Part shown: piece after piece, positions 15,634-30,508 of the stretch
Position numbering within the stretch: the stretch's first letter is position 1
Layout: each line of letters opens with the position of its first letter
NCBI GenBank assembly: GCA_025463925.1
Contig: JAODBK010000011.1
Coordinates: 1-55,674 of the forward strand
Length of the DNA: 55,674 nucleotides
Origin: Acidimicrobiales bacterium
GTDB lineage: Bacteria > Actinomycetota > Acidimicrobiia > Acidimicrobiales > AC-14
Direction of reading: 5' to 3'
Position numbers and translations under genes: made by a program
Notes under the pieces: model-generated
Seen by the model: the letters and a program-made list of their open reading frames with translations, nothing else
Told to the model about the DNA's origin: nothing
Database searches by the model: none

Positions 15634-15676
15634 GTGGGCGTAACTGGACTCGAACCAGTGACCTCCGCCGTGTGAA
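15634..15676. repeat. left attachment site (43-bp copy of the tRNA-Val 3' half)
   Basis: A perfect 43-bp match to 30453-30495, in the same orientation. It covers the tRNA-Val sequence from the anticodon loop to just past the 3' end. The rest of the tRNA is absent here. This is the expected far-end att site left when an element integrates into the 3' end of a tRNA gene. Confidence 0.92.
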
Positions 15677-15867
15677 CTCGAAAGAGGACCTTCCCGACGA
15701 CCCTGCTCCGAGCACGTAAGTGCTGGTCACGCGGTGTTTCGCGCCAACCGCGAGAGACCTCTACTGACCGCCATTTTCAAGGGTTCCGCGCGGTGCCCGC
15801 GGGGTGGAACACCCTACAGACCGCGCTGCATGAACCAACTGGCGACGCTGAGCGAGTCAGCGGATGC
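15677..15867. other. intergenic stretch at the left end of the island
   Basis: No convincing gene. It holds a short dyad, AGCAC-GTAA-GTGCT, near 15714-15727. Together with 15524-15676 it forms a ~340-bp gene-free zone that contains the left attachment site. Confidence 0.4.
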
Positions 15868-16035
15868 CTACGACGCTTTCGCTCGATACTCCTCGAGAGC
15901 ATCAACCGGGATGTGGGCGATGCCGTCGACCATTACGTACCGGATCTTGTGCTCTCGGATGAGCACGAGGAGGTCTCGGGTGGGCATGCCGAGCCGGCGG
16001 GCAGCCTCGGAAGCACGAAGAGGATCAGCGGCCAT
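15868..16035 (-). CDS. small excisionase-like helix-turn-helix protein
   Basis: A 55-residue protein from ATG 16035 (an in-frame Met at 16065 would overlap the upstream gene more). The whole protein is one winged/HTH_17-like unit: LRASEAARRLGMPTRDLLVL, then REHKIRYVMVDGIAHIPVDA and EEYRAKA. Such proteins act as recombination directionality factors or small DNA-binding regulators. It overlaps the upstream 67-residue gene by 11 bp, implying co-translation. A decayed paralogue lies at 14751-14862. Confidence 0.7.
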   Translation of the reverse strand: MAADPLRASEAARRLGMPTRDLLVLIREHKIRYVMVDGIAHIPVDALEEYRAKAS

Positions 16036-16228
16036 CGGTTCCTCCGGAAGGATCGTCAAACCCAAGTCTACGGCTGAGCAGCCGGATCTCGGTCTCCACT
16101 GTTACGACGGCCGCCAGGTGGCCGCTGTCGATGAGGGCGTCTCTGGCATCCTCCAATGCGGCAAACAGGGTCAGAGCCTCCTCAAGGGTGTAGCTGACCG
16201 CGTCCGGCGGTTCATCGTCGCCCGGCAT
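16025..16228 (-). CDS. small hypothetical protein paired with the HTH gene
   Basis: A 67-residue, mostly helical acidic protein (SYTLEEALTLFAALEDARDA ... IRLLSRRLGFDDP). Its end overlaps the start of the helix-turn-helix gene, so the two probably form one transcription unit. No family is recognised. A toxin-antitoxin-like pair is conceivable but unsupported. Confidence 0.55.
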   Translation of the reverse strand: MPGDDEPPDAVSYTLEEALTLFAALEDARDALIDSGHLAAVVTVETEIRLLSRRLGFDDPSGGTDGR

Positions 16229-16303
16229 CGACGGAGTCTTGCAGGCGCCCGCTCGCGAGCTTGTGGTTGCAAGCTCCTCCGGCCGATCGCGTGCGCACTA
16301 CTT

Positions 16304-16316
16304 CGGCACCTATCGG
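16304..16316. repeat. junction motif copy A (CGGCACCTATCGG)
   Basis: One of a set of related motifs at gene junctions in the island. The TAG stop of the minus-strand gene at 16310 lies inside it. It continues outward as CGCACTACTT, also found near 20750 and 27860 in the opposite orientation. Confidence 0.6.
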
Positions 16317-16630
16317 TCGGTCGATGGCACGGGGTCGTCACGGGACCTTTGACGAGTTACGGCGAGGCACAAAACGAGACCGAGCGCGTACACGGCAACC
16401 CCGATCGGGACGTAGCGGTTGGGGCCGCGGCTGACGGCGACGAGAGAAGGCCAACTGCATACCGTCACGAGCCAGACTGTGCCGACGTAGACCCGCTCAC
16501 TGCGGCGACTAGCAGCGCGGCGTTGCGATCGCTTCACTGTCAGCCAGAGGAGTGGCAAGACGGCAATCGTGGCCGCGGCTGCGTAGAAGAGGCCGAAGAC
16601 AACCCAAAGGCCGATCCAGCCCGGCACCAA
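16310..16630 (-). CDS. small membrane protein (3 TM)
   Basis: A 106-residue protein with three predicted helices (WIGLWVVFGLFYAAAATIAV; VYVGTVWLVTVCSWPSLVAV; YVPIGVAVYALGLVLCLAV) and basic loops. GTG 16630 is the start. Its stop codon lies inside junction motif A. No family is recognised. Confidence 0.6.
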   Translation of the reverse strand: MVPGWIGLWVVFGLFYAAAATIAVLPLLWLTVKRSQRRAASRRSERVYVGTVWLVTVCSWPSLVAVSRGPNRYVPIGVAVYALGLVLCLAVTRQRSRDDPVPSTDR

Positions 16631-16668
16631 TCAAAGGGTATCGAAGGGACGCGCCAACTCTCCTGGAT

Positions 16669-16683
16669 CGGCACCTATGCGCT
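16669..16683. repeat. junction motif copy B (CGGCACCTATGCGCT)
   Basis: Lies 2 bp beyond the stop of the gene at 16686-17012. With its flank CCTGGA it is nearly identical to copy C at 17396-17410. Confidence 0.6.
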
Positions 16684-16685
16684 CT

Positions 16686-17012
16686 TCACCACTCGACCAC
16701 TGTGTGACCCGCGGCGTCACGGACTTCTCTGATCGTGCCGTAGGCGAATACGACTGCCTTCCCGTCGCGAAGTAGCTCAACCCCCCGGCCTTTTGTGGGT
16801 CCGACGACTCCAGGTCGCTCGATGGGCCACTGGATCATGGCCCCCTTCCCGACGACGAGCACCAAGTACTCGTTGCGGTGAGCCTCGAAGAAGGCTCGCT
16901 TCTCCGCACTGTCGGCGCTGGAGAGCCTCAGCCCGTAGCGCAGGTAGACGATGAGGCCCGCCAGCAGGACTACCAGCACGGCAACAACGGCGGCGGTTCT
17001 CACGTCCGTCAT
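16686..17012 (-). CDS. single-pass membrane protein, hypothetical
   Basis: 108 residues from ATG 17012. An N-terminal helix (TAAVVAVLVVLLAGLIVYLR) anchors a ~75-residue soluble beta-rich domain (EYLVLVVGKGAMIQWPIERP; GKAVVFAYGTIREVRDAAGH). No family is recognised. The start was chosen because the upstream extension to 17204 is Arg-rich shadow sequence and overlaps the next gene. Confidence 0.6.
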   Translation of the reverse strand: MTDVRTAAVVAVLVVLLAGLIVYLRYGLRLSSADSAEKRAFFEAHRNEYLVLVVGKGAMIQWPIERPGVVGPTKGRGVELLRDGKAVVFAYGTIREVRDAAGHTVVEW

Positions 17013-17044
17013 CTTGCATGGTGCGCGTGCCCGGCGAGCGGTAG

Positions 17045-17052
17045 CGGCACTT
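17045..17052. repeat. partial junction motif (CGGCACTT)
   Basis: Located in the gap between the genes at 16686-17012 and 17072-17368. It keeps CGGCACTT and the nearby CCAGG flank seen with copies B and C, but lacks TAT. Confidence 0.35.
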
Positions 17053-17071
17053 CCAGGTCGGGTGGTTTGCG

Positions 17072-17368
17072 TCACCTTCGGTGCTTGCGGACCGTGATGA
17101 CGCCCCGCCCGACGAGGCCGAGAACGCCAACCCCGACGAACACACCACCCGCGATGCTGCTGTAGGCCCCGATCGCGATTCCGAGCGTGAGGAGGGCGTA
17201 ACACGCGGCCCCGACTGCAAGGTGGACCCGCCGCTCATCGTTCGCGAGCCAAGCCTTTCGTGCCAAGACGACGAGGACCACGGGGATCGGCGCAAGCGCC
17301 GCAGCGATGACAAGGCCCACCCATCGGTGCTCGGTCGCGAGCGGCACCGGGACAGATTGCACCATCAC
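17072..17368 (-). CDS. small membrane protein (2-3 TM)
   Basis: A 98-residue protein with helices WVGLVIAAALAPIPVVLVVL, HLAVGAACYALLTLGIAIGA and AGGVFVGVGVLGLVGRGVIT and a basic C-terminus. ATG 17368 or 17365 is the start. It is part of the minus-strand run of small genes, and no family is recognised. Confidence 0.6.
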   Translation of the reverse strand: MMVQSVPVPLATEHRWVGLVIAAALAPIPVVLVVLARKAWLANDERRVHLAVGAACYALLTLGIAIGAYSSIAGGVFVGVGVLGLVGRGVITVRKHRR

Positions 17369-17395
17369 TCACTCTGGACGGAGGGCGACCTGGAG

Positions 17396-17410
17396 CGGCA
17401 CCTATGCGCT
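17396..17410. repeat. junction motif copy C (CGGCACCTATGCGCT)
   Basis: Contains the TAG stop of the DUF6228 gene at 17402-17404. Identical to copy B over 15 bases. Confidence 0.6.
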
Positions 17411-17830
17411 TGTCGGGAGTGCCAGGAACTCGGTGACCTCTTCGGCCAATCGCCGCAGTTCTTCGCCCGCTTCAACGGCGATTTCCACGGTCGCCTGCCA
17501 GGCATCCGGCTTCCAACTGTGACGGAGGGTTGCCCGGAGAGCGACATGCCCGAGAGGATCGTGACGGGCCTCAAGAGTTAGGTCGTGCTCGATGGCCTCC
17601 CAAGTCCGCACGCCTTCCCAACCGCGCCAGTCAGCAGCAAGCGACCACACGAAGGCGGCAAGGCCCTGCGAGCCTTCGACAGAGCGCACAAATGACGACG
17701 CCTCTAGCCCGGGGCCGTGAACCTCCGTCACAAAGTCAACGAAGTCGTAGCCGTCGCGGAACGGATCGCTGGCGTCACGGAGGAGCACCCAACGCTCAGC
17801 CTCGCGACGGCCGATTCGGACTTGCGCCAT
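17402..17830 (-). CDS. DUF6228-like protein
   Basis: 142 residues from ATG 17830. The core, FVWSLAADWRGWEGVRTWEA, with HDPLGHVALRATLRHSW and EIAVEAGEELRRLAEEVTEF, matches my recollection of the DUF6228 family, small proteins often found beside polymorphic-toxin immunity genes in actinobacteria. The biochemical role is unknown. There is no signal peptide. Its stop lies inside junction motif C. Confidence 0.7.
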   Translation of the reverse strand: MAQVRIGRREAERWVLLRDASDPFRDGYDFVDFVTEVHGPGLEASSFVRSVEGSQGLAAFVWSLAADWRGWEGVRTWEAIEHDLTLEARHDPLGHVALRATLRHSWKPDAWQATVEIAVEAGEELRRLAEEVTEFLALPTSA

Positions 17831-17897
17831 CTTTGAATGATGCCGCGCTTTGCCGCGAGCCAACCGCACGGTATTGCCGGACCTGGGTAGCGCATCG

Positions 17898-17910
17898 CGG
17901 CACTTATCGG
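17898..17910. repeat. junction motif copy D (CGGCACTTATCGG)
   Basis: Located between the permease gene (ends 17990) and the DUF6228 gene start. The preceding GCGCATCG is shared with the copy near 20742. Confidence 0.55.
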
Positions 17911-17989
17911 ATGCCCAGCCCGGCACGAGTCCAGTGAGCTCGCAACGCAGATGACCCGAAGCGCGCCGCCCCAGATGAAGAGTGGGGAA

Positions 17990-20542
17990 TCATCCCGCTC
18001 GCAGAACTTGGGCGGCAGGAGTGCGGGCTGCGCTGCGACGCGGGAGCGTCGCGACGAGATTCGCGAGCACGACCGCGCCGACCGCGACGAGGATCACCGA
18101 CATCACCGGGACGGTCGGTTGGGGCACGGCATTGATGTTGCGGGCGAACAGAGTCCAGAGTTGGCGGCCAAGGGCGATGCCGAGTGGGACTCCGACCACG
18201 ACCCCGATGACCGCCGCGATCGATGCCTGCCAGGCCACGGCGGCCGCGAGCTGTCGCTTCGTGAATCCGAGCGTCTTCAACAGCGCGAGGTCGTGTCGTC
18301 GTCGCCGCACCGACGCCGCGAGGGTGAGGCCGAGCGCGAGGGTCGCGCCGGCGGCGAGTCCGGACGCCAACAGGGCCGGCGTACTGCCCGCCGACCGGTA
18401 GTTGACGATCTCGGCCGGATGCTGGACACCCAGCAGTTGAACCGTGTCGCCTACCCCGGCGGGGTCGGCTGCGAAAGCCTTGGTGCCGGCATCGGCGATC
18501 CGTTGCATATCGGCCAGGCCCGTGGCGGCGCTCACGCCCTTGCGCAGGCGCACGAAGACGAGACCGGGGCCGTTGAAAATGGTGTCGGGGTTGGTGATGG
18601 CCTGCAGAAAAGCAGCCGGCACTATGGCGGTGGACAGCAGCGCTCCGACGCCCATCGACGTGTGGTCGGCAAGTGTGGCGGAGGTGGCGACCGCCGGCAT
18701 GGTGGCGGTGCCGACGATCACCAGGCGCATCGGTGGGATGTTGAGCGGGGCTTGGTTCGGTCTCCCGTAGCCCACCAGAACGGTGTCGCCGATGTGCTTG
18801 TGCAACTGGGCCAACGTGGCTGCACCCAGAACGATCTGGTCTCTGTCGTCTACGGCGTGTCCTGCGAGAAGAGGCGGAGTCAGCGCGGCGTGTGTGTCAC
18901 CGAGCAGGGCCGGAACGTTCAGGCCGTCGATCTGCACATTGAGATTGTGGACGCCCGCCCAAGCCGCGACGTTCGGGTCGTGATCGAGGAGGGCCGTCGC
19001 CTGAGGGGGGACGGCGGTGATGGAATTGAGGGCGTAGCTCCAGTTCCACCCGTAGAGCGCCGGATGCGACACGAGGGTGCGCAGGCCGCTGCCGAATGTC
19101 AGGGTCGCCACCACCATCACCACTGCCAGGGCGGTGCCCACCAATGCCGAGCGCACCGGCACCGCGGTGCGGCCCCGTCCCGGCTCGAGCGCGAAGCGCG
19201 CGCCGACGACGGCGGGCGCTGGCAGCCCCGACGAGGTGGCCATGCGCACGATGCGCGAACGGCGGGCCGCGATGGCGCGCGACCTGCGTGCGACGCGGTG
19301 GGGCGCGCCGAGGGAGGCCAGTAGGCCGGCGATGGCTCCGAGGCCGCCGATCAATACCGCCAGCCCGACACCGAGGACGGCCCAGTCAAAGGCGATGCCC
19401 CGCGACGGATAGACGGGGCGCACGGGGCCCAGCGGCGCCAAAGGCGAGAGCGCGACGGCTATTGCTCCTGCCAAGAGCGTCCCGAGGACAACCGCGCCGA
19501 GAATGCCGATCAGGCCGTCGCTGATGGTCGCGGCGAGGCCGGCGCCGAGGGCACGCAGCACTTGCAGGTCTTCATCTCCCGACCGCAGTTGGCGGGAGAT
19601 GGCCTGGATGGCAATGAGGACGGTGGCGAGAGCGGCGATCGCTCCGAACACACCGATCGCGATCGTTTCGGGTTTCACGGCCCGCTCCACCTTCGCCTCG
19701 CCGAGCGACGTGACGCGGAAGAAGGAGGCACTGCCCGGCGGAAGTAAGGCGACGATCGCCTGCTCCACCGCGGCCACGTCCCGGCTGCCGTGCACGAGCT
19801 GAAGGCCGTACCAGGTGCCCTGAGTGCCCGTCGCGTCGAGCAACGAGCGGGTCAGTGACGGGGTGAACAAGACGTTGGTCGGGAGACGATCGGTCTCGTC
19901 GGCGGCCACCTCGTTGTTGAACACGACGAGGCCCACGAGCTTCATGTCGACGCGGCGCTCCGGCGGGACCTTTGCCGTGCCGAAACCCGGCAGGTTTGCC
20001 TGCGCAGGCTCGTAGAACCCCATCGGGACGACCTGACCGATACGCAGCCCGAGGAGGCGAGCCCCCACCGCAGTCGTGACGAACTCGTCGGCGCGATCGG
20101 GGCTGGCCATGCGGCCCGCGACGGCCGTGGTCCGGTCCTCGTTGAAGTAGAGGCCATCGACGCTGCCGGCCAAATTCAGTTGGGCGACGGCGGCGAAGTT
20201 GGGCGTCCCGTCCGGCTCGAGTGGGGCGGCGAAGACCCCGACCCAGCTCTCGACCCGTTTCACCTGGGCGAGCCGAGCGATCTCGTTCGTCACCTTTGGG
20301 GAGTAGCTATTGGCGGCTGAGTCGGCACTGATGCCGTACGTCGAGAGGGTCAGGTCGGTGGGGTCCGTGCTGGCCAGGAATCTCGGGTAAGCCGACTGCG
20401 TGCGCCGACCCGCGGCGATCGAGCCCATGGCGATCCCACCGACCAACCCGATGAGGAGCACGATCGCCAGGTAGCCGCCCCATCGGCGACCGAAGGTGGC
20501 CCGAAACCGGTACCCGACCACGCGATGCACCAGCCGGTTCAC
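17990..20542 (-). CDS. FtsX-family ABC permease (MacB/LolE-like), without its ATPase
   Basis: An 850-residue membrane protein. An N-terminal helix (YLAIVLLIGLVGGIAMGSIA) precedes a large extracytoplasmic domain. Then come three helices beginning at GVFGAIAALATVLIAIQAIS, a second half with helix SALVGTALAVVMVVATLTFG and another external domain, and a C-terminal FtsX block (LALLKTLGFTKRQLAAAVAW, then VIGVVVGVPLGIALGRQLW). This is the doubled-FtsX layout of actinobacterial lipoprotein/peptide exporters. These normally work with a MacB-type ATPase, but none lies on either side, so it may borrow one encoded elsewhere or be inactive. Confidence 0.85.
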   Translation of the reverse strand: MNRLVHRVVGYRFRATFGRRWGGYLAIVLLIGLVGGIAMGSIAAGRRTQSAYPRFLASTDPTDLTLSTYGISADSAANSYSPKVTNEIARLAQVKRVESWVGVFAAPLEPDGTPNFAAVAQLNLAGSVDGLYFNEDRTTAVAGRMASPDRADEFVTTAVGARLLGLRIGQVVPMGFYEPAQANLPGFGTAKVPPERRVDMKLVGLVVFNNEVAADETDRLPTNVLFTPSLTRSLLDATGTQGTWYGLQLVHGSRDVAAVEQAIVALLPPGSASFFRVTSLGEAKVERAVKPETIAIGVFGAIAALATVLIAIQAISRQLRSGDEDLQVLRALGAGLAATISDGLIGILGAVVLGTLLAGAIAVALSPLAPLGPVRPVYPSRGIAFDWAVLGVGLAVLIGGLGAIAGLLASLGAPHRVARRSRAIAARRSRIVRMATSSGLPAPAVVGARFALEPGRGRTAVPVRSALVGTALAVVMVVATLTFGSGLRTLVSHPALYGWNWSYALNSITAVPPQATALLDHDPNVAAWAGVHNLNVQIDGLNVPALLGDTHAALTPPLLAGHAVDDRDQIVLGAATLAQLHKHIGDTVLVGYGRPNQAPLNIPPMRLVIVGTATMPAVATSATLADHTSMGVGALLSTAIVPAAFLQAITNPDTIFNGPGLVFVRLRKGVSAATGLADMQRIADAGTKAFAADPAGVGDTVQLLGVQHPAEIVNYRSAGSTPALLASGLAAGATLALGLTLAASVRRRRHDLALLKTLGFTKRQLAAAVAWQASIAAVIGVVVGVPLGIALGRQLWTLFARNINAVPQPTVPVMSVILVAVGAVVLANLVATLPRRSAARTPAAQVLRAG

Positions 20543-20664
20543 CGTCGCGTACGACGCAGGTTCACAGCACCATCGTCCTCCGAGGGAGCGCGGTTGCGCC
20601 CGGTCCTCTCCCAGTGTGAACCGACCCTTAGTCGCCGGCCAAGGTGGTCAGCCGGTGCGGAGCC

Positions 20665-20682
20665 GTCGTGTTAACACCACGT
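20665..20682. promoter_or_regulatory. near-perfect 18-bp palindrome upstream of the permease
   Basis: The perfect palindrome GTGTTAACAC (20668-20677) is extended by CGT/ACG arms, with one mismatched pair. It lies about 125 bp upstream of the permease start, and a GCAGC/GCTGC hairpin follows near 20688-20706. It looks like a repressor operator; the factor is unknown. Confidence 0.4.
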
Positions 20683-20741
20683 CGGGCGCAGCTAACTTTC
20701 GGCTGCACCATCCGGCGGTGCCGGACATCGGTGGCGCATCG

Positions 20742-20756
20742 CGGCACAAGTAGTGC
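20742..20756. repeat. junction motif copy E (CGGCACAAGTAGTGC)
   Basis: Begins CGGCAC like the other copies and is preceded by GCGCATCG, as in copy D. Its AAGTAGTGC part matches, in the opposite orientation, the CGCACTACTT flank of copy A. It is 2 bp from the tautomerase-like stop. Confidence 0.45.
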
Positions 20757-20758
20757 GG

Positions 20759-21148
20759 TCAGATGTCGACCTTGAACCCCACGTCGACTTCGCTGGCTGG
20801 CACGCCGCCGTCGACTCCCCAGTTCTCCATTGGCACCTCTTCCAGCACGATCACAACATCGTCCGGCGGGACGCCGAGAGACTGAAGTCCATGCACGATC
20901 GCCTGATACAAGCGCCGCTTGGTCTCGATCGTCCGACCCGCGAACATCGTCACGGTCACGATCGTGTATCGATCGGACACCTTGGACGGAAGGACCACGT
21001 CGGCAGCATCTCGTGTGACAGCAATGACCGTGGGGTCGCCCGGCGGCACCTTCAGTGCGCCAACAAGCGCGTCGGCGACACCTTCGATGAGCAGCCGTCG
21101 ATCGTTCTTCGTTATCGCCCAGAAAAGCTCGATGCGTGCGATCGCCAT
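20759..21148 (-). CDS. tautomerase-superfamily protein lacking Pro1
   Basis: 129 residues from ATG 21148. The beta-alpha-beta repeats RRLLIEGVADALVGALKVPP and KRRLYQAIVHGLQSLGVPPD, with the ending EVPMENWGVDGGVPASEVDV, are typical of tautomerase-like (4-oxalocrotonate tautomerase fold) proteins. The catalytic N-terminal Pro expected straight after Met is absent: the protein starts Met-Ala-Ile-Ala-Arg. Either another residue acts or the enzyme has a non-tautomerase role. It lies between two junction motifs. Confidence 0.75.
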   Translation of the reverse strand: MAIARIELFWAITKNDRRLLIEGVADALVGALKVPPGDPTVIAVTRDAADVVLPSKVSDRYTIVTVTMFAGRTIETKRRLYQAIVHGLQSLGVPPDDVVIVLEEVPMENWGVDGGVPASEVDVGFKVDI

Positions 21149-21192
21149 GAGCGCACCGTATCCACGACGGCCCGGAGCACCCCACGAAATAA

Positions 21193-21205
21193 CGGCACCT
21201 ATCGG
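21193..21205. repeat. junction motif copy F (CGGCACCTATCGG)
   Basis: Identical to copy A over 13 bases and continued by TCGG. Located between the beta-propeller gene and the tautomerase-like gene. Confidence 0.6.
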
Positions 21206-21245
21206 TCGGGTGCGGAATACGGTTGATCGACACACCACCCGACCG

Positions 21246-24158
21246 TCAGGTGAGCGTCAGCGTCCACGCCCCGCGGCCATGTGTGGCGGCGACCAGTTGG
21301 TCGCCGTAGAGCGTCAGGCCGTAGACCGCAACCGCCGGCAGGCCGGAACCGAGCGCCGACCAGCTGTTCCCGCCGGTCGCCGGCGCGGTCAGGACGCCGA
21401 AGTCGGTCGCGGCGTAAAGCACCCGTCGGGCGTCGTCGTACACCAGGCCGGTGACCGGCATGTCGCCGATTCCGCCCGCCGCCGAGGGGTCCCCGGACAG
21501 GTCGGTCGCGGCGGCCGCGCCACCGCTCGGGTCGAACCGCAGGTCGTAGACGTGCCCACCGGCGAAGTATGCCGAGTAGCCCGAGAACGACACGAAAGCG
21601 TGCATCGGGTCGGCCGGGTCGACGGCGATGCCGCTGATGAACCGCTCCGGGGTGAGGTGCGTCTTCCCGCCATCGGACGTGTCGATGCGGGTGAACGTCA
21701 CGTCCTTCGCGGCGGCCCGGGCGTTGGTGCTGACGAACAGCCGCGCGCCGCGGGTGGCCACCCACATCACGTCGGGGTTGCTCGGCGCGACGGCGATCGC
21801 GGCGATGTAGAAGCCGGACCGGTCGCCGAACGACGGGCTGGTCAGGTCCGCGCCGATCGACTGGAAGTCGCCACAGACGACGGTCGGGTCGAAGCGCGCG
21901 GGATCGGTCTCGCTGCAATGCGAGTCGAGCCACGCGGGGTCGCCGCCATCGTCGGTCGTGCGCCAGACGTGCTGGAGACCCGTATAGACGGTGCCCGGGA
22001 TGCTGGGCGCCGCGATCAGCGGCACGTAGAACGACGTCCGCTCGCCGCTGGAGTCCTGCGGCTGGGAGATGTAGTTCCAGTGGTCCGGGTCAAGGCCGGC
22101 GCCATACTGCGCCGTGGCCGGCGCGGAGTTCACGTCCGCGAACGAGTCGTAGTAGGTGTGGAAGTGCACGCCGGAGTTGCCGCTGTCGGTGGCCGACTGT
22201 CCGCCGTCGCCGCCGACGGTCTCGTAACCGGTGTCGCTGCCGCCGAACGCCCACGTGCCGTTGTCCTGCGTGCCGCCGAGATAGTGACGGATACCGCCGT
22301 CGACGTACGACGACACGCTCTGGAACTGAAGCGTCTGTAGGCCCTGGTTGAGCGGCCGGACCGCCGTAGGGACGGCCTTTAGCCACCGCAGGCAGTCTTG
22401 GAGGTCGTAGCCGTTCAGATGGCGAGCGGCGCAGGTGCCGGAGGCGTCGACACTGGCCGCGCCGTCGACCCGGATCACTCCGCCGTCGCTCGCCTCGAAG
22501 AACTGATCCTGCTGGCCAGGGACGAACGCGAGCGCGTGCTGGTCCGGGTGCATCCCGACGCCGTTCGTGCCGACGGTCATGTCGGTGAACGACACTCCGG
22601 CGGTGACCGACCGCAGCACCGCGCGACCGTTCGACCGCGGCGGGACGGTGCCGAAGATCTCGTCGTAGTTCATCGACCCGCCGATGTAGACGGTGTCGGG
22701 GTGGCCCGGCGGCGTGACCACGAACATGTCATAGCCGCACTGCGCCTCGCAGAAGTTGTACGAGTCGAAGCCGGGCTGGCCGTTGCCGGGGTTGGACAGG
22801 TTGGTCCAGCCGCCGTTGCCGTTGGAGTCGCTGAGCTTGCTCGCCGCGACGTCGGCGTTGTCGGTACGCCACAGCCACGACAGGAACTTCTCGTCGTTCT
22901 CGTCACCGGCGTAGATGCGGGTCTTGCCGTTCTTGACGGTCAACGCGAACTCGGTGCGGTCGCCGAACAAGTCCTTCGGGTGCGCGGTCGCGAACACCCG
23001 CTTGAACGCCGACGTGCCGTCGAGCCGCGACGAGCTGCGCCAGATGCCGTAGCCGTACAGCGCGACGTACACGGTGTTCTCGTCGCGCGGGTCGAGTTGC
23101 ACGTTGTTGACGCCACCCTGGAAGTAGTCCTGTCCGGTCGAGGGCGGCACCGTGTTGCCGGGCAGCGAGAAGATCTTCGTGAACGTCGTCGTGCCCGGAG
23201 CGAGTCGGAACAGGCCGAGCGGGGCCGCGTCCGGCGGCGTGCGACGGCCGCTGTAGACGGCCGAGACGCCGTGCCGGGCGACGTCGGTGCCCATGTAGAC
23301 GGTGCCGTTCGAGGACACGGTGAGGCCGCCGATGCCGCGGCTGAGCGCGGCGACGTCGCTGTTCGCGACCAGCGACCAGTGCGCGCCGCCGTCCGCGGTG
23401 CGGTAGAGACCGACGCCGGCCTCCGAGTCGCCGCCGCCGTTCTGCTCGCCGGTGCCGACGTAGAGGGTGTGCCGCGGTACGTCGTAGAACAGTGATCCGA
23501 TCGAGCCGGACGGGATCCCGGCCGAGACGAACGACCACGTCGGCGAGTTGGACAGGCCGTTGTCGGTGCGCCAGACGCCGCCGCCGGCGGTGCCGAGGTA
23601 GACCGTGCACGCGGACGCGTTACATCCGGGTACGACGGCGAGCGCGGTCGCGCGACCGGAGTTGGTGCTCGGCGTTCCGGTGTAGGTGACGAGGCCGGGG
23701 ACGTCGTTCGTCAAGGGCCCGAGCGGCGACCACGTACCGCCGGTCGCGGTGAACGTCGAGTTGCTCGTCGCGTTGCTGGTCGATGTGGTCGGCGTCGAGC
23801 CGTCGGTCCGGGAGTTGCGGGCGAGCTTGTCGAACGCCCGCCGGGCGCCGCGGGCCTGCGCGTCGGAGATGGTCGTGCGGGGAAACGCTCGGTCGGCGTA
23901 GTCCTGTTGCGCCGGGCCGTATGCCTGCTCCTTGTCTGGCTCGAGGGCGTCCTTGAGCATCGCCAGTGGAAGGTGCCGGTGGACCAACGCCGCCTCGGGC
24001 TGCTCAAGGGCAAACTGCGCGAGGGTCTCCCCCGACAGTTGCGGCGCAGGTACGGCCGCCGGGGTCGTCACGACGCCGCCGCCGGCCTGCCCAAACACGG
24101 CGACGACCGCGAGCCCGCCCGTAGTGGCGAGCATCCGCCGACGCGATCCAACACGCAT
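21246..24158 (-). CDS. large secreted BNR/VPS10-like beta-propeller protein
   Basis: A 970-residue protein from ATG 24158, behind a GAGGGGG site. A basic start and hydrophobic stretch (MLATTGGLAVVAVFGQAGGG) act as a Sec or Tat-like signal. After a Ser/Thr-rich linker there are many sialidase/sortilin-type repeats with the pattern VYLGTAGGGVWRTDNG, LYVGTGEQNGGG, YRTADGGAHWSLV, VYIGGSMNYDE, LRSVTAGVSFTDM, MWVATRGARLFVS and LYAATDFGVLTAPATGGNSW. Two multi-blade propellers are likely. Such proteins bind or cleave glycans (GH74-like) or act as surface adhesins. The catalytic residues cannot be assigned by eye. Confidence 0.82.
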   Translation of the reverse strand: MRVGSRRRMLATTGGLAVVAVFGQAGGGVVTTPAAVPAPQLSGETLAQFALEQPEAALVHRHLPLAMLKDALEPDKEQAYGPAQQDYADRAFPRTTISDAQARGARRAFDKLARNSRTDGSTPTTSTSNATSNSTFTATGGTWSPLGPLTNDVPGLVTYTGTPSTNSGRATALAVVPGCNASACTVYLGTAGGGVWRTDNGLSNSPTWSFVSAGIPSGSIGSLFYDVPRHTLYVGTGEQNGGGDSEAGVGLYRTADGGAHWSLVANSDVAALSRGIGGLTVSSNGTVYMGTDVARHGVSAVYSGRRTPPDAAPLGLFRLAPGTTTFTKIFSLPGNTVPPSTGQDYFQGGVNNVQLDPRDENTVYVALYGYGIWRSSSRLDGTSAFKRVFATAHPKDLFGDRTEFALTVKNGKTRIYAGDENDEKFLSWLWRTDNADVAASKLSDSNGNGGWTNLSNPGNGQPGFDSYNFCEAQCGYDMFVVTPPGHPDTVYIGGSMNYDEIFGTVPPRSNGRAVLRSVTAGVSFTDMTVGTNGVGMHPDQHALAFVPGQQDQFFEASDGGVIRVDGAASVDASGTCAARHLNGYDLQDCLRWLKAVPTAVRPLNQGLQTLQFQSVSSYVDGGIRHYLGGTQDNGTWAFGGSDTGYETVGGDGGQSATDSGNSGVHFHTYYDSFADVNSAPATAQYGAGLDPDHWNYISQPQDSSGERTSFYVPLIAAPSIPGTVYTGLQHVWRTTDDGGDPAWLDSHCSETDPARFDPTVVCGDFQSIGADLTSPSFGDRSGFYIAAIAVAPSNPDVMWVATRGARLFVSTNARAAAKDVTFTRIDTSDGGKTHLTPERFISGIAVDPADPMHAFVSFSGYSAYFAGGHVYDLRFDPSGGAAAATDLSGDPSAAGGIGDMPVTGLVYDDARRVLYAATDFGVLTAPATGGNSWSALGSGLPAVAVYGLTLYGDQLVAATHGRGAWTLTLT

Positions 24159-24632
24159 AGCTAGCCAACCCCCTCAAAAACCGCGACCGCCACGGCAAGC
24201 TTCGAAAATCGACGCTCCGTCTTCATTGGCTGCCCTCCGTGTCAGAGCCTGTGCCGGGCGCGGTTGGGCGTCAATCAAATGAGCATCAACTTCATCTGCT
24301 TCGTCTTGGCCGCGATTGGTGCGAATGGCTGCAAGAGATCAGGTTTGCCGCGTTGATGGACTCGCTCGCCAGCGGTGCCGGTTGGTCATCGGGGCTCGGA
24401 CTTGTTGCGCTGCGGGGTCAACGTCGAACCATCCGAGAATGCCGGCACCGGGGCGGTTATCACCAGCCTGAAACTCGCGCTGATGAACCGGTCACCAGCC
24501 CCAAGTTCGCCAGTCTTCAGCGCTGGGCTGCCTCGGCCAGATGCGGCCCGAATTGCCTGAAGACCAGACACCTCCCGGATGGCGCGGCGCTTCTAGTTCG
24601 AGCCCTCACTCCCCGCCAATCCCGGTCACTAA
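24159..24632. other. 474-bp gap with no convincing gene
   Basis: Short open frames on both strands lack family features. The stretch contains an inverted-repeat copy (24441-24468) matching 26610-26637. It may be promoter or leader DNA for the beta-propeller gene plus remnant sequence. Confidence 0.4.
24441..24468 (-). repeat. 28-bp inverted repeat, left copy
   Basis: The reverse complement matches 26610-26637 at 26 of 28 positions. The two copies face each other across the cell-wall-binding-repeat gene. Confidence 0.75.
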
Positions 24633-26174
24633 TTACGTACGAGTCCAGGTCCCGCAGTTGTCCGAGATGAACCCGGCGTCGCTCGCTCCGATGGCCACGA
24701 CCGGATGCGTCGTCCCGATGTCGTTGGTGATGATGTCATCGAGCTCGCCCGAGAATCCCGACAGCCGCGCCCAGTAGCAATCGCCGCCACCTGGGGACGT
24801 CCAGGTTCCTGGTCCAATGTCAGTATTGACGATCCACGTGCCACTTCCAAACGGCGCAGTCAAAGAGGACGTGATTGCGGACAGGTCATTTGTCCATGTG
24901 GCACACGAAGAGGACTTGAAGCCAGCATCGGTCGGAGCGATCGTCACGACGTCGTGGAAGTTCGTGAAGTTGTTGGTGATGATGTCGTCGAGCGTCCCCG
25001 AGAAACCGCTCTGGCGCTCCCAGTAGCAGCCGGACGCATCGGAGCGCGTGCGGTACGTCCCCGACGGTATGTCGCCGCCAACGACGAACTCTCCGTTGCC
25101 GAACGTCTTGCGTGGCGGCGGAGGCGGCGGAGGCGGCGGAGGCGGCGGAGGCTTCGGACATGGTGTCAAGCTCTCAACGGCAGGTGACACTGCGCCCGGC
25201 CCACCGAGGATGACGAGCGTGGACGGTGCCAGCCGATTGATCTCGGCATTGACCGCATCCGGCACGCACGTGCCTGGAACGAGCAGCACTGGGCCCGGGA
25301 CCCTCGCGGCAGCCGGCGCGCCGGCCAAGCCGTCCGGGAAGTCGAGACCCGTCGCAATGAAGACCTTCGATACCGGTGGCGCCTTGAACGCTGCGCTCGA
25401 GAGATTGACGGCCGTGTCATACCGAGTGTTGCCACCGATTCGGTTGACGCCGCCTGAGGTGAAGTTGTGCAGCTGTTGCTCGACTGACTGGGACACCGCG
25501 CCAAAGCCGCCGAGGATGTTGATTGCCCCAGGGTGGAGGCGCTGCAGTTCCGTTGCCACCTCGCTCGGGATGGCGTTCGCCGTGACGAGCAGAATCGGTC
25601 CGCCGTCTCGGCCCGCCACTGCTCCGCCAGCCAGGGCGTCCGCGAAGGCGTCGCCGGTTGCCACATACGCGACTCCGATACCGGGCGCGAACGTCGCCGC
25701 AGACACCGCCGCCGACGTCGCGTAGCGCGTGAACCCATAAATGCGCTGCACGCCGCCGGTCGTATATGAGCCGAGCTGCGACACAACGGCGTCGGAAACC
25801 GCGGTTGGACCGCCGAGTACGACGATACGGCCGGGGGTGAGCCGGTGAAGCTCAGCATCCGTAGCGGACGGAATGGCGTTCACTTGTACGAGCAGGATCG
25901 GTCCGGCTGACTTGGCGGCCGCCGGTCCGCCTGCGAGTGCGTCGGCGAAGGCGTCGCCTGTTGCTACGTATGCCACCGGAACGTTGGGTGAAAAGGTCGC
26001 TTGCGATATCGCGGCCGCCGTTCCGTACCGGTTGGTGCCCTGAAGTCGTTGCACAGTCGGCGCAGCCGACGCGGGCCCAGCTCCGGGCAAAGACAGCCCG
26101 AAGATGAGCGTCGCTGCCGCTACAGCGGTTCGGCGTCGGGTTCGCGCGCTGGCGCTTGGCATTGCGTGGCTCAT
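24633..26174 (-). CDS. secreted CWB2 cell-wall-binding protein with two C-terminal CYW repeats
   Basis: 513 residues from ATG 26174, behind GGTGGAGG. A signal peptide (AVAAATLIFGLSLPGAGPAS) is followed by three cell-wall-binding 2 repeats with hallmark segments NRYGTAAAISQATF, VAYVATGDAFADALAGG, GPILLV and IVVLGGPTAVS. A run of 13 Pro then leads to two tandem ~70-residue domains containing DIPSGTYRT / DIGPGTWTS, GCYWERQSGFSG / DCYWARLSGFSG, DDIITN and SCATWT / NCGTWT. The CWB2 part should anchor the protein to the envelope and the C-terminal pair is displayed. The paired Cys residues suggest disulfides. The proline tract is coded by a 9-bp tandem repeat (25114-25152). Confidence 0.88.
   Translation of the reverse strand: MSHAMPSASARTRRRTAVAAATLIFGLSLPGAGPASAAPTVQRLQGTNRYGTAAAISQATFSPNVPVAYVATGDAFADALAGGPAAAKSAGPILLVQVNAIPSATDAELHRLTPGRIVVLGGPTAVSDAVVSQLGSYTTGGVQRIYGFTRYATSAAVSAATFAPGIGVAYVATGDAFADALAGGAVAGRDGGPILLVTANAIPSEVATELQRLHPGAINILGGFGAVSQSVEQQLHNFTSGGVNRIGGNTRYDTAVNLSSAAFKAPPVSKVFIATGLDFPDGLAGAPAAARVPGPVLLVPGTCVPDAVNAEINRLAPSTLVILGGPGAVSPAVESLTPCPKPPPPPPPPPPPPPRKTFGNGEFVVGGDIPSGTYRTRSDASGCYWERQSGFSGTLDDIITNNFTNFHDVVTIAPTDAGFKSSSCATWTNDLSAITSSLTAPFGSGTWIVNTDIGPGTWTSPGGGDCYWARLSGFSGELDDIITNDIGTTHPVVAIGASDAGFISDNCGTWTRT
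25114..25152. repeat. 9-bp tandem repeat coding the polyproline linker
   Basis: Four copies of GGCGGCGGA plus GGC on the plus strand. Each unit adds three Pro codons on the minus strand, so unit gain or loss would change linker length in frame. Confidence 0.85.
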
Positions 26175-26273
26175 CGTCCGCCTCCACCGTTCAGCGATAG
26201 GAACATCGTTGTCCGAAAGGAGCGAAAGCACCAGGGCGGGAGCCGTATTGAATCAGTGCCCATAGGCGTCTAG

Positions 26274-26528
26274 TCCGCTGGACACGCGCGCTTCGTGCTC
26301 AACGGACTGCCGTATGACCACAAAGATTGCACCGACCCACCGGACGCCCTCACCCTTCCGACCGGTGTCCACAAGGGAGACAGTTGGCAGTTCAACGAGA
26401 CCTGCACCGATCGGCTCAACGGCACCTCGACCTCCACGGAACGGATGATCGATAACGGCCGGGAGCGAGTCATGGTCGGGACACAGCTCGTGTGGACGGT
26501 CCACACACCCATACTCGGCTCCGGGTGA
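26274..26528 (+). pseudogene. fragment of a possible secreted beta-rich protein
   Basis: The frame opens after TAG 26271-26273 and reads GLPYDHKDCTDPPDALTLPT, then HKGDSWQFNETCTDRLNGTS, RVMVGTQLVWTVHT, and stops at 26528. The composition resembles the middle of a lipoprotein-like beta domain, but there is no signal, plausible start or C-terminal half. I read it as a gene fragment, with low confidence. Confidence 0.35.
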
Positions 26529-26609
26529 TGTCGAGGATGTCTGGCCGCCACAACCTCGGCCGGCACGCCAGCTACATCGTCACGGCCTTCGTCGCCGGAG
26601 CCGCCTGGC

Positions 26610-26637
26610 GCTGGTGATAACCGCCCCAGTCCCGGCA
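26610..26637 (+). repeat. 28-bp inverted repeat, right copy
   Basis: Partner of 24441-24468 in inverted orientation (26 of 28 matches). Its last bases run straight into junction motif G. Confidence 0.75.
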
Positions 26638-26646
26638 CTATGCGCT
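26633..26646. repeat. junction motif copy G (CGGCACTATGCGCT)
   Basis: Differs from copies B and C by one missing C. Located ahead of the membrane protein gene at 26689. Confidence 0.55.
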
Positions 26647-26688
26647 ACCGAGCGCTGTCGGCGCGGGCCGGGTAATGCTCTGACGGAG

Positions 26689-27210
26689 ATGTTCGGACGC
26701 AGGTACCAGCGCAAGCTCGCTGAAGGCAAAGTGCCACCGAGCCGCGGTCAAAGGAACGCTGCCCTCGGAGCGTTTGGCTTCATCGCCATGGGGGCAGTGC
26801 TCATTGCATCGGGCCGGGTCGTGGGTTTCGTGACCGGTGCAGTAAGCGTCGTCTTCGGCTCAGTCGGCCTCTTGCAAACGTGGAAAGTCACCAGGCATCG
26901 GCGCATCCTTCCGCCCGCGATACAGAAGGCGGTTGGTGCAATGCCCCAATTTCGGCCTGGACAACACCGGATCACCGTCGTTCTCCGGGACGGCAGCGTC
27001 CATCGCAACGTCTACGTCGCCTATGGCCTGTATGTCACCGGGGTCGGCTGGTCGCCGATCGTACGATTTCGCACCGACGACATAACGGCCGTGCTGGCTC
27101 AGCAGTGGCGAGGCGTAACGCCGACCGGGAGGTGCCGCACCCGATCGGGTCAACGCGATGGTCACACTCCGGCGGAGCGAGCGAATCGCTGGTGCAAGCC
27201 GCGGTCTTGA
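26689..27210 (+). CDS. two-TM hypothetical protein
   Basis: 173 residues from ATG 26689. A basic N-terminus (FGRRYQRKLAEGKVPPSRGQ), two adjacent helices (ALGAFGFIAMGAVLIASGR; VVGFVTGAVSVVFGSVGLL) and a soluble C-terminal domain with RITVVLRDGSVHRNVYVAYG. An Arg-rich tail after ~position 145 may be read-through into non-coding sequence. No family is recognised. The upstream extension to 26614 crosses a repeat and is unlikely. Confidence 0.5.
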   Translation: MFGRRYQRKLAEGKVPPSRGQRNAALGAFGFIAMGAVLIASGRVVGFVTGAVSVVFGSVGLLQTWKVTRHRRILPPAIQKAVGAMPQFRPGQHRITVVLRDGSVHRNVYVAYGLYVTGVGWSPIVRFRTDDITAVLAQQWRGVTPTGRCRTRSGQRDGHTPAERANRWCKPRS

Positions 27211-27267
27211 CGAAAAGGTGGCTCCTCTTGTCGGAGACGCAACGCGATGCCGGCTGGCAAGGGCGGC

Positions 27268-27624
27268 TCATGCCTCGTCGACGCCGCCGAGACCTGAGTC
27301 GCGCGGAAACGCGACGCCGCCCTCGTGCCAGCGCCGCAACGACTCGAACGGGTAGATGCCCGTCGAATGGCCGTCGTTCCATTCGATGTGCAGACCCCAC
27401 GCGCCATGGAAGTTCGCGTCGTCGATGCGAAGTGGCGTGGGGCTCCCAGGCCGCGGCCACACTGGCTCGCGCTGATCGCGCAGGCCACGGCACGTGGCAC
27501 AAGGGCACATCCGGCGAAGGGTCACAAGGTCGAACGACGCGACGTAGCCGTCGAGAAATGCGATCGTGACACCCTCGTCGCGGACGACGTCGGTCGTCTC
27601 GGGCTCGTAACGCTCATCCACCAC
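27268..27624 (-). CDS. DUF971-domain protein
   Basis: 118 residues from GTG 27624. The domain (gamma-butyrobetaine hydroxylase N-terminal-like, DUF971) is recognised by GVTIAFLDGYVASFDLVTLR, RRMCPCATCRGLRD with its zinc-type Cys pattern, and WGLHIEWNDGHSTGIYPFES. Stand-alone members are linked to iron-sulfur cluster carriers, but the role is not settled. It lies convergent to the upstream plus-strand membrane protein gene. Confidence 0.85.
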   Translation of the reverse strand: MVDERYEPETTDVVRDEGVTIAFLDGYVASFDLVTLRRMCPCATCRGLRDQREPVWPRPGSPTPLRIDDANFHGAWGLHIEWNDGHSTGIYPFESLRRWHEGGVAFPRDSGLGGVDEA

Positions 27625-27998
27625 CGCCAGTCTGCTCGCACGATGCGAGGTGACGGGTAACTCGCCTGCACTCAGCGAGCTGAGCGTGATGATCCGTCCC
27701 GCAGTCCAGAGCGGTGGCGGCGTCTCGTCTTGATCGGAGCCGACGTCGACACAGGTGTCAGCGCGTGCCCGAAAGGTCGCGGTCGTCGTTTTGCGTCACG
27801 CAATCACCAAGGTCGACCTTCACTGAGATGGCGCGTAAACCGCCCGTAAGGTGCCGAAGTAGTGCGCTCCGTCCGGGCTTCCCGATCGGTTGCATTGATC
27901 AGCACGACAAGCAGGCATCGCCGAGCGCCACTACTGCCCGCGTTGTCGCAGTCATCATGACGCCTGGCCAGCTGAGCGAGCCGCTCTAGCCTGGCCGG
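27625..27998. other. 374-bp gap with a junction-motif relative
   Basis: No convincing gene. On the minus strand, CGGCACCTTACGG (about 27844-27856) and the adjoining CGCACTACTT resemble copy A (16287-16316). The rest is unremarkable. Confidence 0.4.
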
Positions 27999-28349
27999 AT
28001 GCCTTCTCGGCCGGGCGTCCCCGACACCGCGCTCGCTGCGGTGCGCCGCTATTGCGAGAACAAGATCCCCGCTCAGCACCGTGACCAGATGCGCGTCGAG
28101 TGCGATGTGCGCGGGAAGAGCATCACCATCTTCGAGTGCCGACCGCCCTGGCAGCCCGATCTCGGACCCGATTGGACGCGCCAACCCGTCGCCCAGCTGC
28201 GCTATGAGCCGGCCGACCACCTCTGGCGGCTCTACTGCGCGGACCGCAACAGCCGCTGGCATTGCTACGACATGGTCGAGCCCACCCCACGGCTCGACGA
28301 GCTCCTCGCCGAGATCGACGAAGACCCCACCGGCATCTTCTGGGGCTAA
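27999..28349 (+). CDS. DUF3024-domain protein
   Basis: A 116-residue protein, ATG 27999. The pattern VRRYCENKIPAQHRDQMRVE, ECRPPWQPDLGPDWTRQPVA, QLRYEPADHLWRLYCADRNS and ELLAEIDEDPTGIFWG matches the DUF3024 family, small cytoplasmic proteins of unknown function that are common in actinobacterial accessory DNA. The length is full for the family. Confidence 0.85.
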   Translation: MPSRPGVPDTALAAVRRYCENKIPAQHRDQMRVECDVRGKSITIFECRPPWQPDLGPDWTRQPVAQLRYEPADHLWRLYCADRNSRWHCYDMVEPTPRLDELLAEIDEDPTGIFWG

Positions 28350-28922
28350 CCCCGCCTGCCAAACCACGCCCGACATCACTCCTCCAGTGCGACATCAGGC
28401 GTCATCGCCAGGACCATGCTGCGTGGCACAGCACGCCAATTGCGCGCCGCCCCAGAGTCGCAACGCCCACCCTCGCGAGACGGGTAGCGGGACGGCGCCG
28501 GTCGAGGTCAGCGATACCGTGCCGGCGGCAGCGACGCCCTTGTCGCGGCACCGTGCCCCTCGAAGTCAGTTGTTGAGAACCCATCAGGGACCAACCTGGT
28601 CGCCACTGAGCCAAGCGCCCCCTCACGGGCTCGAGGAACATCACGAATGTGATCGCAGTCCCGGTGAGCGCCGCTGAAGACCACCTCAGAGTCATCTGCA
28701 CGGTCGACGCGACATGCTCGTCTCGCGCCTGCACGACCTTCGCGGATTCGCCGCCCTCCCGCGCCTCGCGTCACCGATCTGTCAGTCCCTCAATCGCCAC
28801 CCGCGTCGACGACGCAGCACCATCTCTCAGACGCACACAGACTTGCCGTTATCGCAAAAGCGATAACGGCGCTGAGGCTCGGGTGTCGCGCATCGAGCCC
28901 GCCGACCGTACGTGGATGGGTT
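28350..28922. other. 573-bp gap upstream of xis-int
   Basis: Open frames here lack family character. The main structure is the 26-bp hairpin at 28845-28870 and the presumed promoter of the xis-int unit. Confidence 0.4.
28845..28870. promoter_or_regulatory. perfect 11-bp hairpin/dyad before xis-int
   Basis: GCCGTTATCGC and GCGATAACGGC surround an AAAA loop. It ends ~52 bp before the xis start. With no T-run it fits an operator or an Xis/Int arm site better than a terminator. Confidence 0.6.
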
Positions 28923-29252
28923 ATGGGAGAACTCGCAACGGCCGACGCAGGGGACGCCAGCTCGCACCGACGGGCCCCGCTCCCCCATCTGCTCGACATC
29001 GACGGGGTGGCCGAGCACTTGGGAGTCACCGTCCGCCATGTCCGCCGTCTCGTGTACGAGCGGCGGATCCCCTTCATCAAGTGGGGCCACCTGCTCCGGT
29101 TCGATCCCGACGAGCTGGCGGCCTGGCTGGACAGCATGCGCCAGAGCCCGTCCGCTGACCGCTCCTTGTCCACCCACCGCGGCATCGGCGATGCTTGTCA
29201 CCACACATCGCCACCCGGCGTGGCCTCTCGGATCCGACGCGGGAGACGCTGA
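28923..29252 (+). CDS. excisionase-like helix-turn-helix protein (Xis)
   Basis: A 109-residue protein with an HTH_17/excisionase domain at residues ~22-70: LLDIDGVAEHLGVTVRHVRR, LVYERRIPFIKWGHLLRFDP and DELAAWLDSMR. It probably bends att-site DNA and sets the direction of recombination. It sits 2 bp before the integrase start. The last ~15 residues (PGVASRIRRGRR) come from the 48-bp repeat shared with the Fur-family gene. Confidence 0.82.
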   Translation: MGELATADAGDASSHRRAPLPHLLDIDGVAEHLGVTVRHVRRLVYERRIPFIKWGHLLRFDPDELAAWLDSMRQSPSADRSLSTHRGIGDACHHTSPPGVASRIRRGRR

Positions 29253-29256
29253 CGAT
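29209..29256. repeat. 48-bp repeat, copy 2 (xis-int junction)
   Basis: 47 of 48 identical to 11654-11701. Here it covers the 3' end of xis, its stop codon, the GGGAG ribosome site and the first bases of the integrase start. Confidence 0.9.
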
Positions 29257-30508
29257 GGGCCACGTACGCAGAACGAACAACGGGCGGTACGAGGCTCGCT
29301 ACCGCGGCCCCGATGGCCGCGAGCGGTCCAAGTGGTTCGCGACCCGCCGGGACGCGACGCTGTTCCTCGGGCAGGTTGGGTTGGACATCCACCACGGCGA
29401 CTGGTGCGACCCCGAAGGCGCACGCCTGCGGCTCGGCGACTGGGCCGAGACGTGGCTGGCCACGCTCGTCGGCCTCCGCCCGTCGAGCCTCGCCAGGGTC
29501 CGGACGACGCTCCGCAACCAGGTGCTCCCGGCGTTCGGCGACGCGCCGCTGGGTCGGGTCAGTCAGTTCGAGGTGCGCCGTTGGGTCGCTCAGCTCGTGG
29601 CTGACGGCCTCGCGCCGGCGACCGTGCACAAGAGCTACCAGACGCTGTCGCAAATGATGGCGGCCGCGGTCGACGCCGGACTGATCCCCGCTTCCGCATG
29701 CCACAACGTCCGACTGCCGCGCATCGAACGCGAAGAGATGCGCTTCCTCACCCCCGACGAGATCGTGACCCTCGCCGCGTCCATCGCGCCCCGCTACCGC
29801 GCCCTTGTCCTGTTCGATGCCCATTGCGGTCTGCGCCTCGGCGAGCTCGCCGGCCTTCGCCGCAGCCGGCTCGACCTGACCGCGCACCAGGTCCGCGTGG
29901 CCGAAGTCGTCGTCGAGGTAGAGGGCAAGCTGTTCACCGGTCCACCGAAGACGAGAGCGGGCCGGCGAACCGTGCCGATCCCCCGCTTCGTCGCGTTGGC
30001 GATGCGCCAACACCTCGAGCAGTACTGCGACCGCGACCCGGACGCGATCGTCTTCGGCGGAGCGGACGGGGGCGCGCTCCGCGCCAACGCGTGGCGACGA
30101 CGACACTGGCTGCCCGCTATCCGCACAGCCGGCGTCGCGCCCCTGCGGCCGCATGACCTTCGCCACACCGCGGTGTCGCTGTGGATCGCAGCGGGCGCAA
30201 GCCCGAAGCAGATCGCGCTGTGGGCCGGCCACACGTCGGTGTCGGTCGTGCTCGATCGCTACGGCCATCTCTTCCCCGGTCACGAGAAGGCCGTACTCGA
30301 CAGGCTCGATGAGATCGGCAACACGCCGCCCGTGACCGCCACGACCCCGCGGGCCCCGCGAGAGACCGAAGAATCCGCGGGGTTGCCGCGGGGTGAGCTG
30401 ATCGAGCTCCGTCCTTCGAAGCGGCCGCGACGCTCTGACCAGGAAGAACGCAGTGGGCGTAACTGGACTCGAACCAGTGACCTCCGCCGTGTGAAGGCGG
30501 CGCTCTAA
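29255..30508 (+). CDS. int: tyrosine site-specific integrase
   Basis: 417 residues from ATG 29255, behind GGGAGACGCTGACG. An N-terminal AP2-like arm-binding part (NNGRYEARYRGPDGRERSKW) and a SAM-like core-binding domain precede the catalytic domain: Arg in HCGLRLGELAGLRR, HDLRHTAVSLWIAAG, LWAGHTSVSVVLDRYGHLFP with the GH pair and nucleophile Tyr. It should recombine the island's attP with the 3' end of tRNA-Val. The last ~18 residues are translated from the antisense of the attachment site and tRNA, so integration defines its C-terminus. Confidence 0.92.
   Translation: MGHVRRTNNGRYEARYRGPDGRERSKWFATRRDATLFLGQVGLDIHHGDWCDPEGARLRLGDWAETWLATLVGLRPSSLARVRTTLRNQVLPAFGDAPLGRVSQFEVRRWVAQLVADGLAPATVHKSYQTLSQMMAAAVDAGLIPASACHNVRLPRIEREEMRFLTPDEIVTLAASIAPRYRALVLFDAHCGLRLGELAGLRRSRLDLTAHQVRVAEVVVEVEGKLFTGPPKTRAGRRTVPIPRFVALAMRQHLEQYCDRDPDAIVFGGADGGALRANAWRRRHWLPAIRTAGVAPLRPHDLRHTAVSLWIAAGASPKQIALWAGHTSVSVVLDRYGHLFPGHEKAVLDRLDEIGNTPPVTATTPRAPRETEESAGLPRGELIELRPSKRPRRSDQEERSGRNWTRTSDLRRVKAAL
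30453..30495. repeat. right attachment site (43 bp, within tRNA-Val)
   Basis: Perfect direct repeat of 15634-15676. It covers the anticodon-loop-to-3'-end half of the intact tRNA gene and overlaps the integrase 3' end. Confidence 0.92.

Follow-up and report, generated by a model that had tools for sequence, protein, structure and literature searches.

The stretch of DNA analysed here (the window; 55,674 bp, contig C114 of an Acidimicrobiales genome of 4.08 Mb in 119 contigs, 96.67% complete) contains a genomic island in which a short motif, CGGCAC(C/T)TAT, recurs at the junctions of small genes. Our analysis suggests that small-gene cassettes have been shuffled in this genome as units at a short site, in a manner resembling integrons, although the site differs and no integron integrase was found. 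The motif probably represents the core and a single arm of a recombination site that is short, double-stranded and located at the junctions of gene-cassette arrays. The first-pass annotation had proposed a cassette-like array, and this proposal is borne out by a site-bounded unit present in two arrays, by chimeric sites, by genes that are ended by the site, and by an array locus on another contig, C1, that is empty in relatives.

The site and its occurrence

Exact CGGCACYTAT occurs five times in the window, against a mean of 0.02 in 100 dinucleotide shuffles, none of which reached five. Genome-wide there are 17 copies, of which five fall in a 5-kb part of the window island; the motif is not equally common at random positions, which the first-pass annotation had named as an outcome speaking against an array. 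The flanks of eight other exact copies were inspected, and several of these, lying inside apparent coding sequence, are probably chance occurrences. The extended form CGGCACCTATCGGWYGG is present in five copies in the genome, two of them in the window, and in none across 40 relatives.

The genes of the window array are on the minus strand, and in their direction the motif reads ...CCGATAG-GTGCCG.... In this orientation the site consists of a left arm of ~14 nt, a core GTGCCG (CGGCAC on the plus strand) and a right arm of 14-40 nt, so the ten-base motif, though present as described, is only part of a longer, two-armed site centred on GTGCCG. The usual left arm is about GACCATCCGATAG; right arms fall into several types (CGRTGCGCTACC, AAGTAGTGCGCACC, TACCAGGTCGGCC-like, plus others). 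Of the 32 listed sites, 24 have the core GTGCCG, three GTGCCC, two GTGCTG, and one each GTGCCA, ATGCCG and GTGCCT, a tally that is not independent because the core was partly used in finding the sites. In the best site pairs, similarity starting at the first base past the core extends over 22-65 nt. The site lists comprised 28 sites for folding, 31 for left-half pairing, 33 for right-arm similarity runs, and 32 for the open reading frame (ORF) stops, arm linkage, attC core and dif-arm comparisons; the lists of 32 include L038:2280 and L151:6093 and exclude the weak sites at window 24448, L040:13289, L077:9130 and L038:3497.

The motif or a variant of it is present at all nine places named initially (Table 1). 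These copies are real, but the list was incomplete: a site at 27132 on the plus strand, a weaker one at 24448 on the minus strand and many on other contigs have to be added. No window position outside the island scores like a genuine site in a model scan (best 13.4, versus 18-34 for most island sites; 1 Mb of random sequence gave six matches above 13), in agreement with the earlier remark that the motif was not noticed there. Sites lie on at least eight contigs of this genome (C114, C1, C14, C17, C27, C47, C53 and C55), and a second array was found on C1 (L016 7192, 8271, 8827, 10108, 11219, 11486 and 13548; L038 1895 and 2280).

A sequence model built from 22 sites gave, at E ≤ 1, 46 matches in this genome, training sites included, and 0-15 matches per relative (40 relatives). 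Most matches in relatives are probably background. Five were inspected, one of them with its ORF context; they look coding-like or due to chance, except that the match in G003 (L085) looks site-like. The strict pattern CCATCCGN{2,4}GTGCCSCGRTGCGCT has four copies in this genome, none in the other 396 genomes of the taxonomic order that were searched and none in genome_contigs, and three site patterns had no match in viral_contigs; because exact patterns only were used, diverged site forms would escape these searches. No DNA of the DUF6228 cassette was found on plasmids. Our literature search found no description of such sites, which is weak evidence of absence, as subscription papers and preprints were poorly covered.

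The position of the sites is tied to the ends of genes. A same-strand ORF of at least 60 aa stops 0-25 nt before the core at 19 of 32 sites, compared with 32 of 455 other GTGCCG at the same loci (Fisher p = 1e-12), part of this excess arising because the left arm contains TAG; the ORF abuts the core at 6/32 sites and at 1/455 other GTGCCG. As had been noted for copies A and C, the site can itself supply the stop codon of the adjacent gene (Table 1). Eight of the ten window sites and all nine C1 sites point the same way, with spacings of 267 to 4347 bp. The cargo is mixed in both arrays, namely a DUF6228 protein, a tautomerase, an FtsX permease and a CWB2 protein in the window, and a short-chain dehydrogenase, a glyoxalase, a phosphoribosyltransferase, a methyltransferase and a PMT_2 protein on C1.

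Unit boundaries, chimeric sites and the C1 insertion

One complete unit of 388 bp is shared between the array on C1 (L038:1892-2279) and contig C47 (L039:8981-9373) at 80% identity, with the core delimiting the match on either side. Its 300-nt outer flanks score 12.5 and 12.0, versus 223 inside and a median of 14.0 for 300 random pairs; at the right end, the alignment of the tails and left arms continues to GTGC and is lost beyond it. Chimeric sites are observed as well: window site I (27851) and the C1 site at L016:8271 are similar from GTGCCG rightward and dissimilar leftward. Over 32 sites, pairwise left-arm similarity is unlinked to right-arm similarity (r = 0.04, p = 0.28), while linkage is seen in both positive controls, between the halves of the left arm (r = 0.24, p = 0.005) and between two stretches of the right arm (r = 0.43, 0/2000 permutations). 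Unlinked arms are the prediction of exchange at the core, and are not predicted by the copying of whole repeats.

On C1, 15.9 kb including the array lie between two genes, one with its stop ending at 63956 and the other starting at 79888. We take the left gene, as read from its sequence, to encode a phosphomannomutase, and the small right gene to be presumably UPF0434/Trm112-like. Eight relative loci were fetched, of which two were taken for a different gene and omitted; in all six that hold both genes (G001, G003, G004, G006, G014, G034), these abut or overlap, with no more than 2 nt from stop to start.

Based on these observations, we propose that cassettes of one or two genes would carry the left arm (~14 bp) at their downstream end, often just past the stop codon, and the right arm (14-40 bp) at their upstream end, and that conservative site-specific recombination within the common 6-bp core GTGCCG could add, remove or relocate them. 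Each junction would then be a chimera of the ends of two cassettes, and the arrays would reside in inserted islands. We infer that a site-specific recombinase is responsible.

Several points weigh against this interpretation. Only one complete unit is common to two arrays, the two ends of the C1 insertion bear no clear site, and no recombinase is linked to the site. The arm-linkage test is biased toward independence, since acceptance of a site required the core and one or more good arms. In a C17 paralog of the window FtsX gene (L151:3336-6101), 3' similarity reaches site E, including its left arm and core. In the remaining four FtsX paralogs and in one in another genus it stops at most a few bases from the stop codon, and on the upstream side the similarity of four paralogs is lost 50-63 nt before core F is reached, so this pattern backs a boundary for a single paralog, and there at one end only. 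Inverted repeats at both unit ends are not general (14 pairs, p = 0.03, driven by one pair), and the idea that they terminate every cassette was rejected, being true of few. No near relative shows gain or loss of units in the window island, there being no close relative with that island to compare. Fixed gene order without such gain or loss had been named at the outset as evidence against an array; this was examined within this genome only, where one unit does stand in two different arrays.

Within the C1/C47 unit, a likely gene (L039:9014-9361) runs opposite to the site direction, with its stop TAG within the right arm, and hence genes may lie in either orientation. Of 98 stretches in genome_contigs that matched a peptide pattern for the small protein of this unit, none was confirmed as a relative.

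Relation to integrons and the weighing of alternatives

Modular gene capture in bacteria is classically exemplified by integrons. Integron arrays, and clusters of attC sites lacking integron-integrases (CALINs), which require no integrase in cis, share with the arrays described here head-to-tail small, unrelated genes, a recombination site near each stop codon, and sites that are alike over short sequence only; the layout of small genes in one direction is present here. It might therefore be asked whether this is a true integron or CALIN with attC sites diverged beyond recognition. The first-pass annotation had not seen a classical attC core, and indeed the pair RYYYAAC ... GTTRRRY was detected at 0/32 sites on either strand (chance level 6/800). 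There is no hairpin excess (mean z -0.02 in 28 sites vs 0.06 in 109 control stretches) and no preferential pairing of the left half with its own downstream sequence over cross pairing (p = 0.25, 31 sites). The genome has eight PF00589 matches, none of them on the array contig C1. No scanned protein reached the TIGR02249 cut-off of 265 (those scanned cover seven of the eight PF00589 matches, all but the second C108 fragment), the best score for the IntI model, 118.6, belonging to a XerC-like protein; since the genome is 96.67% complete, an integrase gene could be missing from the assembly. Furthermore, the break here falls mid-site, between two arms around a fixed core. The array functions in a cassette-like manner but does not qualify as an integron. 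An IntI-driven integron was rejected for want of the attC core pair, a hairpin excess and any scanned recombinase near the IntI cut-off, and we regard integron or CALIN membership as very improbable.

The shortness of the sites, many of which lie directly past stop codons, and the confinement of the family to this genome among those searched would also suit a repeat of the repetitive extragenic palindromic (REP) or miniature inverted-repeat transposable element (MITE) type, inserting downstream of stop codons with the adjacent genes as bystanders. However, the point where homology between loci breaks lies inside the element, not at its margin, its left and right halves are unlinked, and the fold excess is absent, which makes such a repeat quite unlikely. 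Even less credible is a regulatory site, i.e. a promoter or a repressor operator belonging to some regulon that only this genome has. Many start codons do lie downstream of sites and two arms would suit a dimeric regulator, but placement is tied to upstream stops, the arms are highly variable, and in two contexts the site delimits a complete unit on both sides. The shared promoter or RNA element offered as an alternative in the first-pass annotation loses ground for similar reasons: sites follow stops, show no excess folding and contain the homology breaks. Both the REP/MITE and the operator readings were rejected.

Another explanation, in effect a variant of the cassette model that names a different enzyme, is that the sites are worked by the phage-type integrases of the islands (that of the window and one on C27, L036:11759-13267), with tandem accretion of small elements bounded by attachment (att) sites. 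Two site-bearing contigs do carry an integrase beside tRNA-Val, near sites. On the other hand, the att repeat of the window island lacks GTGCCG, and hence the attachment site of the island integrase differs from the cassette site; C1 has no PF00589 match, and the two integrases are 31% identical over 290 aa. We consider this explanation unlikely. Tandem accretion of integrative elements and cis-mobilizable elements (CIMEs) similarly places units side by side at core-sharing sites in tRNA-gene islands, but the units seen here are of 0.3-4 kb, mostly with one or two genes and without an integrase of their own, and their core is absent from the tRNA repeat.

As for the enzyme that would recombine cassettes at the GTGCCG core, our guess is a Xer-type recombinase, the first candidate in view of the weak likeness between the left arm and the XerC arm of a candidate dif site, and because no integron integrase was found. 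The genome encodes a XerD-like protein on C62, a XerC-like one on C89, phage-type integrases on C27, C64, C90, C108 and C114, and one serine recombinase match on C97; on C108 (17450-17957) a tyrosine integrase was matched as two pieces in different frames. For comparison we used a candidate dif site on C7, located with a dif consensus from which it differs by three mismatches. Left arms agree with its XerC arm at 5.8/11 positions versus 3.6/11 for other GTGCCG (1.25% of trials with a shuffled arm reach this value), the agreement of right arms with its XerD arm is not in excess (2.7 vs 2.6, p = 0.33), and there is slight XerC likeness of right arms (4.4 vs 3.8, p = 0.004) and XerD likeness of left arms (3.2 vs 2.7, p = 0.007), with p-values that are too small because the sites are related by descent. 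The XerC resemblance of the left arm weakly suggests a Xer-type enzyme and may serve as a lead, not as a demonstration.

The pdif modules of Acinetobacter plasmids, worked by XerC/XerD, also have two arms flanking a 6-bp spacer, with units exchanged between sites (PMC13141974). As described there, conserved arms flank a variable spacer, and each site faces the opposite way to its neighbour; in the arrays of this genome the arms vary around a fixed core, neighbours point the same way (as counted above), and the right arm lacks XerD likeness.

It is possible, though we would put it no more strongly than that, that a cassette-capture system has arisen apart from integrons, in which genes end in short, double-stranded, two-armed sites, a Xer-type host enzyme or some recombinase other than IntI exchanges them at an invariant 6-bp crossover core, and head-to-tail arrays form in the genomic islands of this lineage. 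If true, this would be a second system with the integron layout but another site, cassette arrays would have arisen more than once, and attC-based searches would overlook such arrays. The core, arms and candidate enzymes are defined well enough for reporter testing.

The carrier island and neighbouring features

The window array is cargo of a tRNA-Val island that carries its own phage-type integrase (Table 1). The direct repeat of a tRNA 3' end and the integrase by which tRNA genomic islands are recognized belong to the carrier island and not to the cassettes. A tRNA was the sole match in an Rfam search; the idea that the site is a tRNA-derived repeat, prompted by a possible short likeness to tRNA D-arms, was rejected. 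In the window island the G+C content is 0.672 and in its flanks 0.705; the C1 array has 0.655, other C1 stretches 0.724.

Table 1. Sites, genes and other features of the window island (window coordinates)
Feature	Position	Strand	Remarks
Genomic island	15634-30495		Between 43-bp exact direct repeats (15634-15676, 30453-30495) equal to the 3' half of tRNA-Val (CAC)
Site A	16290-16323, core 16304-16309	-	Its TAG terminates ORF 16310-16630
ORF, 106 aa	16310-16630	-	Membrane-protein-like by eye; no Pfam match
Site B	16655-16688, core 16669-16674	-
ORF, 172 aa	16686-17204	-	Start probably near 17013; no Pfam match
Site D	17031-17064, core 17045-17050	-	Partial copy of the first-pass annotation
ORF, 98 aa	17072-17368	-	Membrane-protein-like by eye; no Pfam match
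Site C	17382-17415, core 17396-17401	-	Its TAG terminates the DUF6228 ORF
DUF6228 protein	17402-17926	-
Site E	17884-17917, core 17898-17903	-	45 bp at 87% to L036:13790-13832
FtsX/MacB-type permease, 850 aa	17990-20542	-	Five DNA-level paralogs in this genome
Site F	20728-20761, core 20742-20747	-	Variant left arm
Tautomerase	20759-21238	-	Start probably near 21149
Site G	21179-21212, core 21193-21198	-
ORF, 970 aa	21246-24158	-	No Pfam match
Site J (weak)	24429-24462	-	Palindromic core GCCGGC; arm is inverted repeat of the site H arm
CWB2 cell-wall-binding protein	24633-26231	-
Site H	26619-26652, core 26633-26638	-
Site at 27132	27118-27151	+	34 bp at 85% to C14 site
Site I	27837-27870, core 27851-27856	+	Right half common to C1 site L016:8271
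HTH_17 protein	28923-29252	+	At tRNA end; excisionase-like, inferred from position
Phage-type tyrosine integrase, 437-aa ORF	29195-30508	+	PF00589, E 2.9e-16; at tRNA end
tRNA-Val (cac)	30453-30527	-	Intact copy at island end

Contig C27 has a layout like that of the window (L036:10430-13267), comprising tRNA-Val (GAC), a tyrosine integrase and a transposase-like ORF (HTH_38, weak rve), with sites nearby. A 28-bp inverted repeat (93%; window 24440-24467 and 26610-26637) covers arm sequence of sites J and H, which stand at either end of the CWB2 unit, and a similar stretch lies near C1 L038:3497. Upstream of the FtsX gene, window 20560-20692 is conserved with L150, L151 and L077, upstream of FtsX paralogs (around GTGGTG.TAACACGACG...CCGGCTGACCACCTTGG), possibly as a common promoter or leader.

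Three further similarities concern the island and its surroundings. The start of the integrase ORF (29192-29256) has a direct repeat outside the island at 11640-11701 (65 bp, 91%), a 97-bp repeat (76%) links 14767-14862 outside the island with 15935-16030 inside it, and window 15868-16193 has homologs at 75-78% in G005 and G046.

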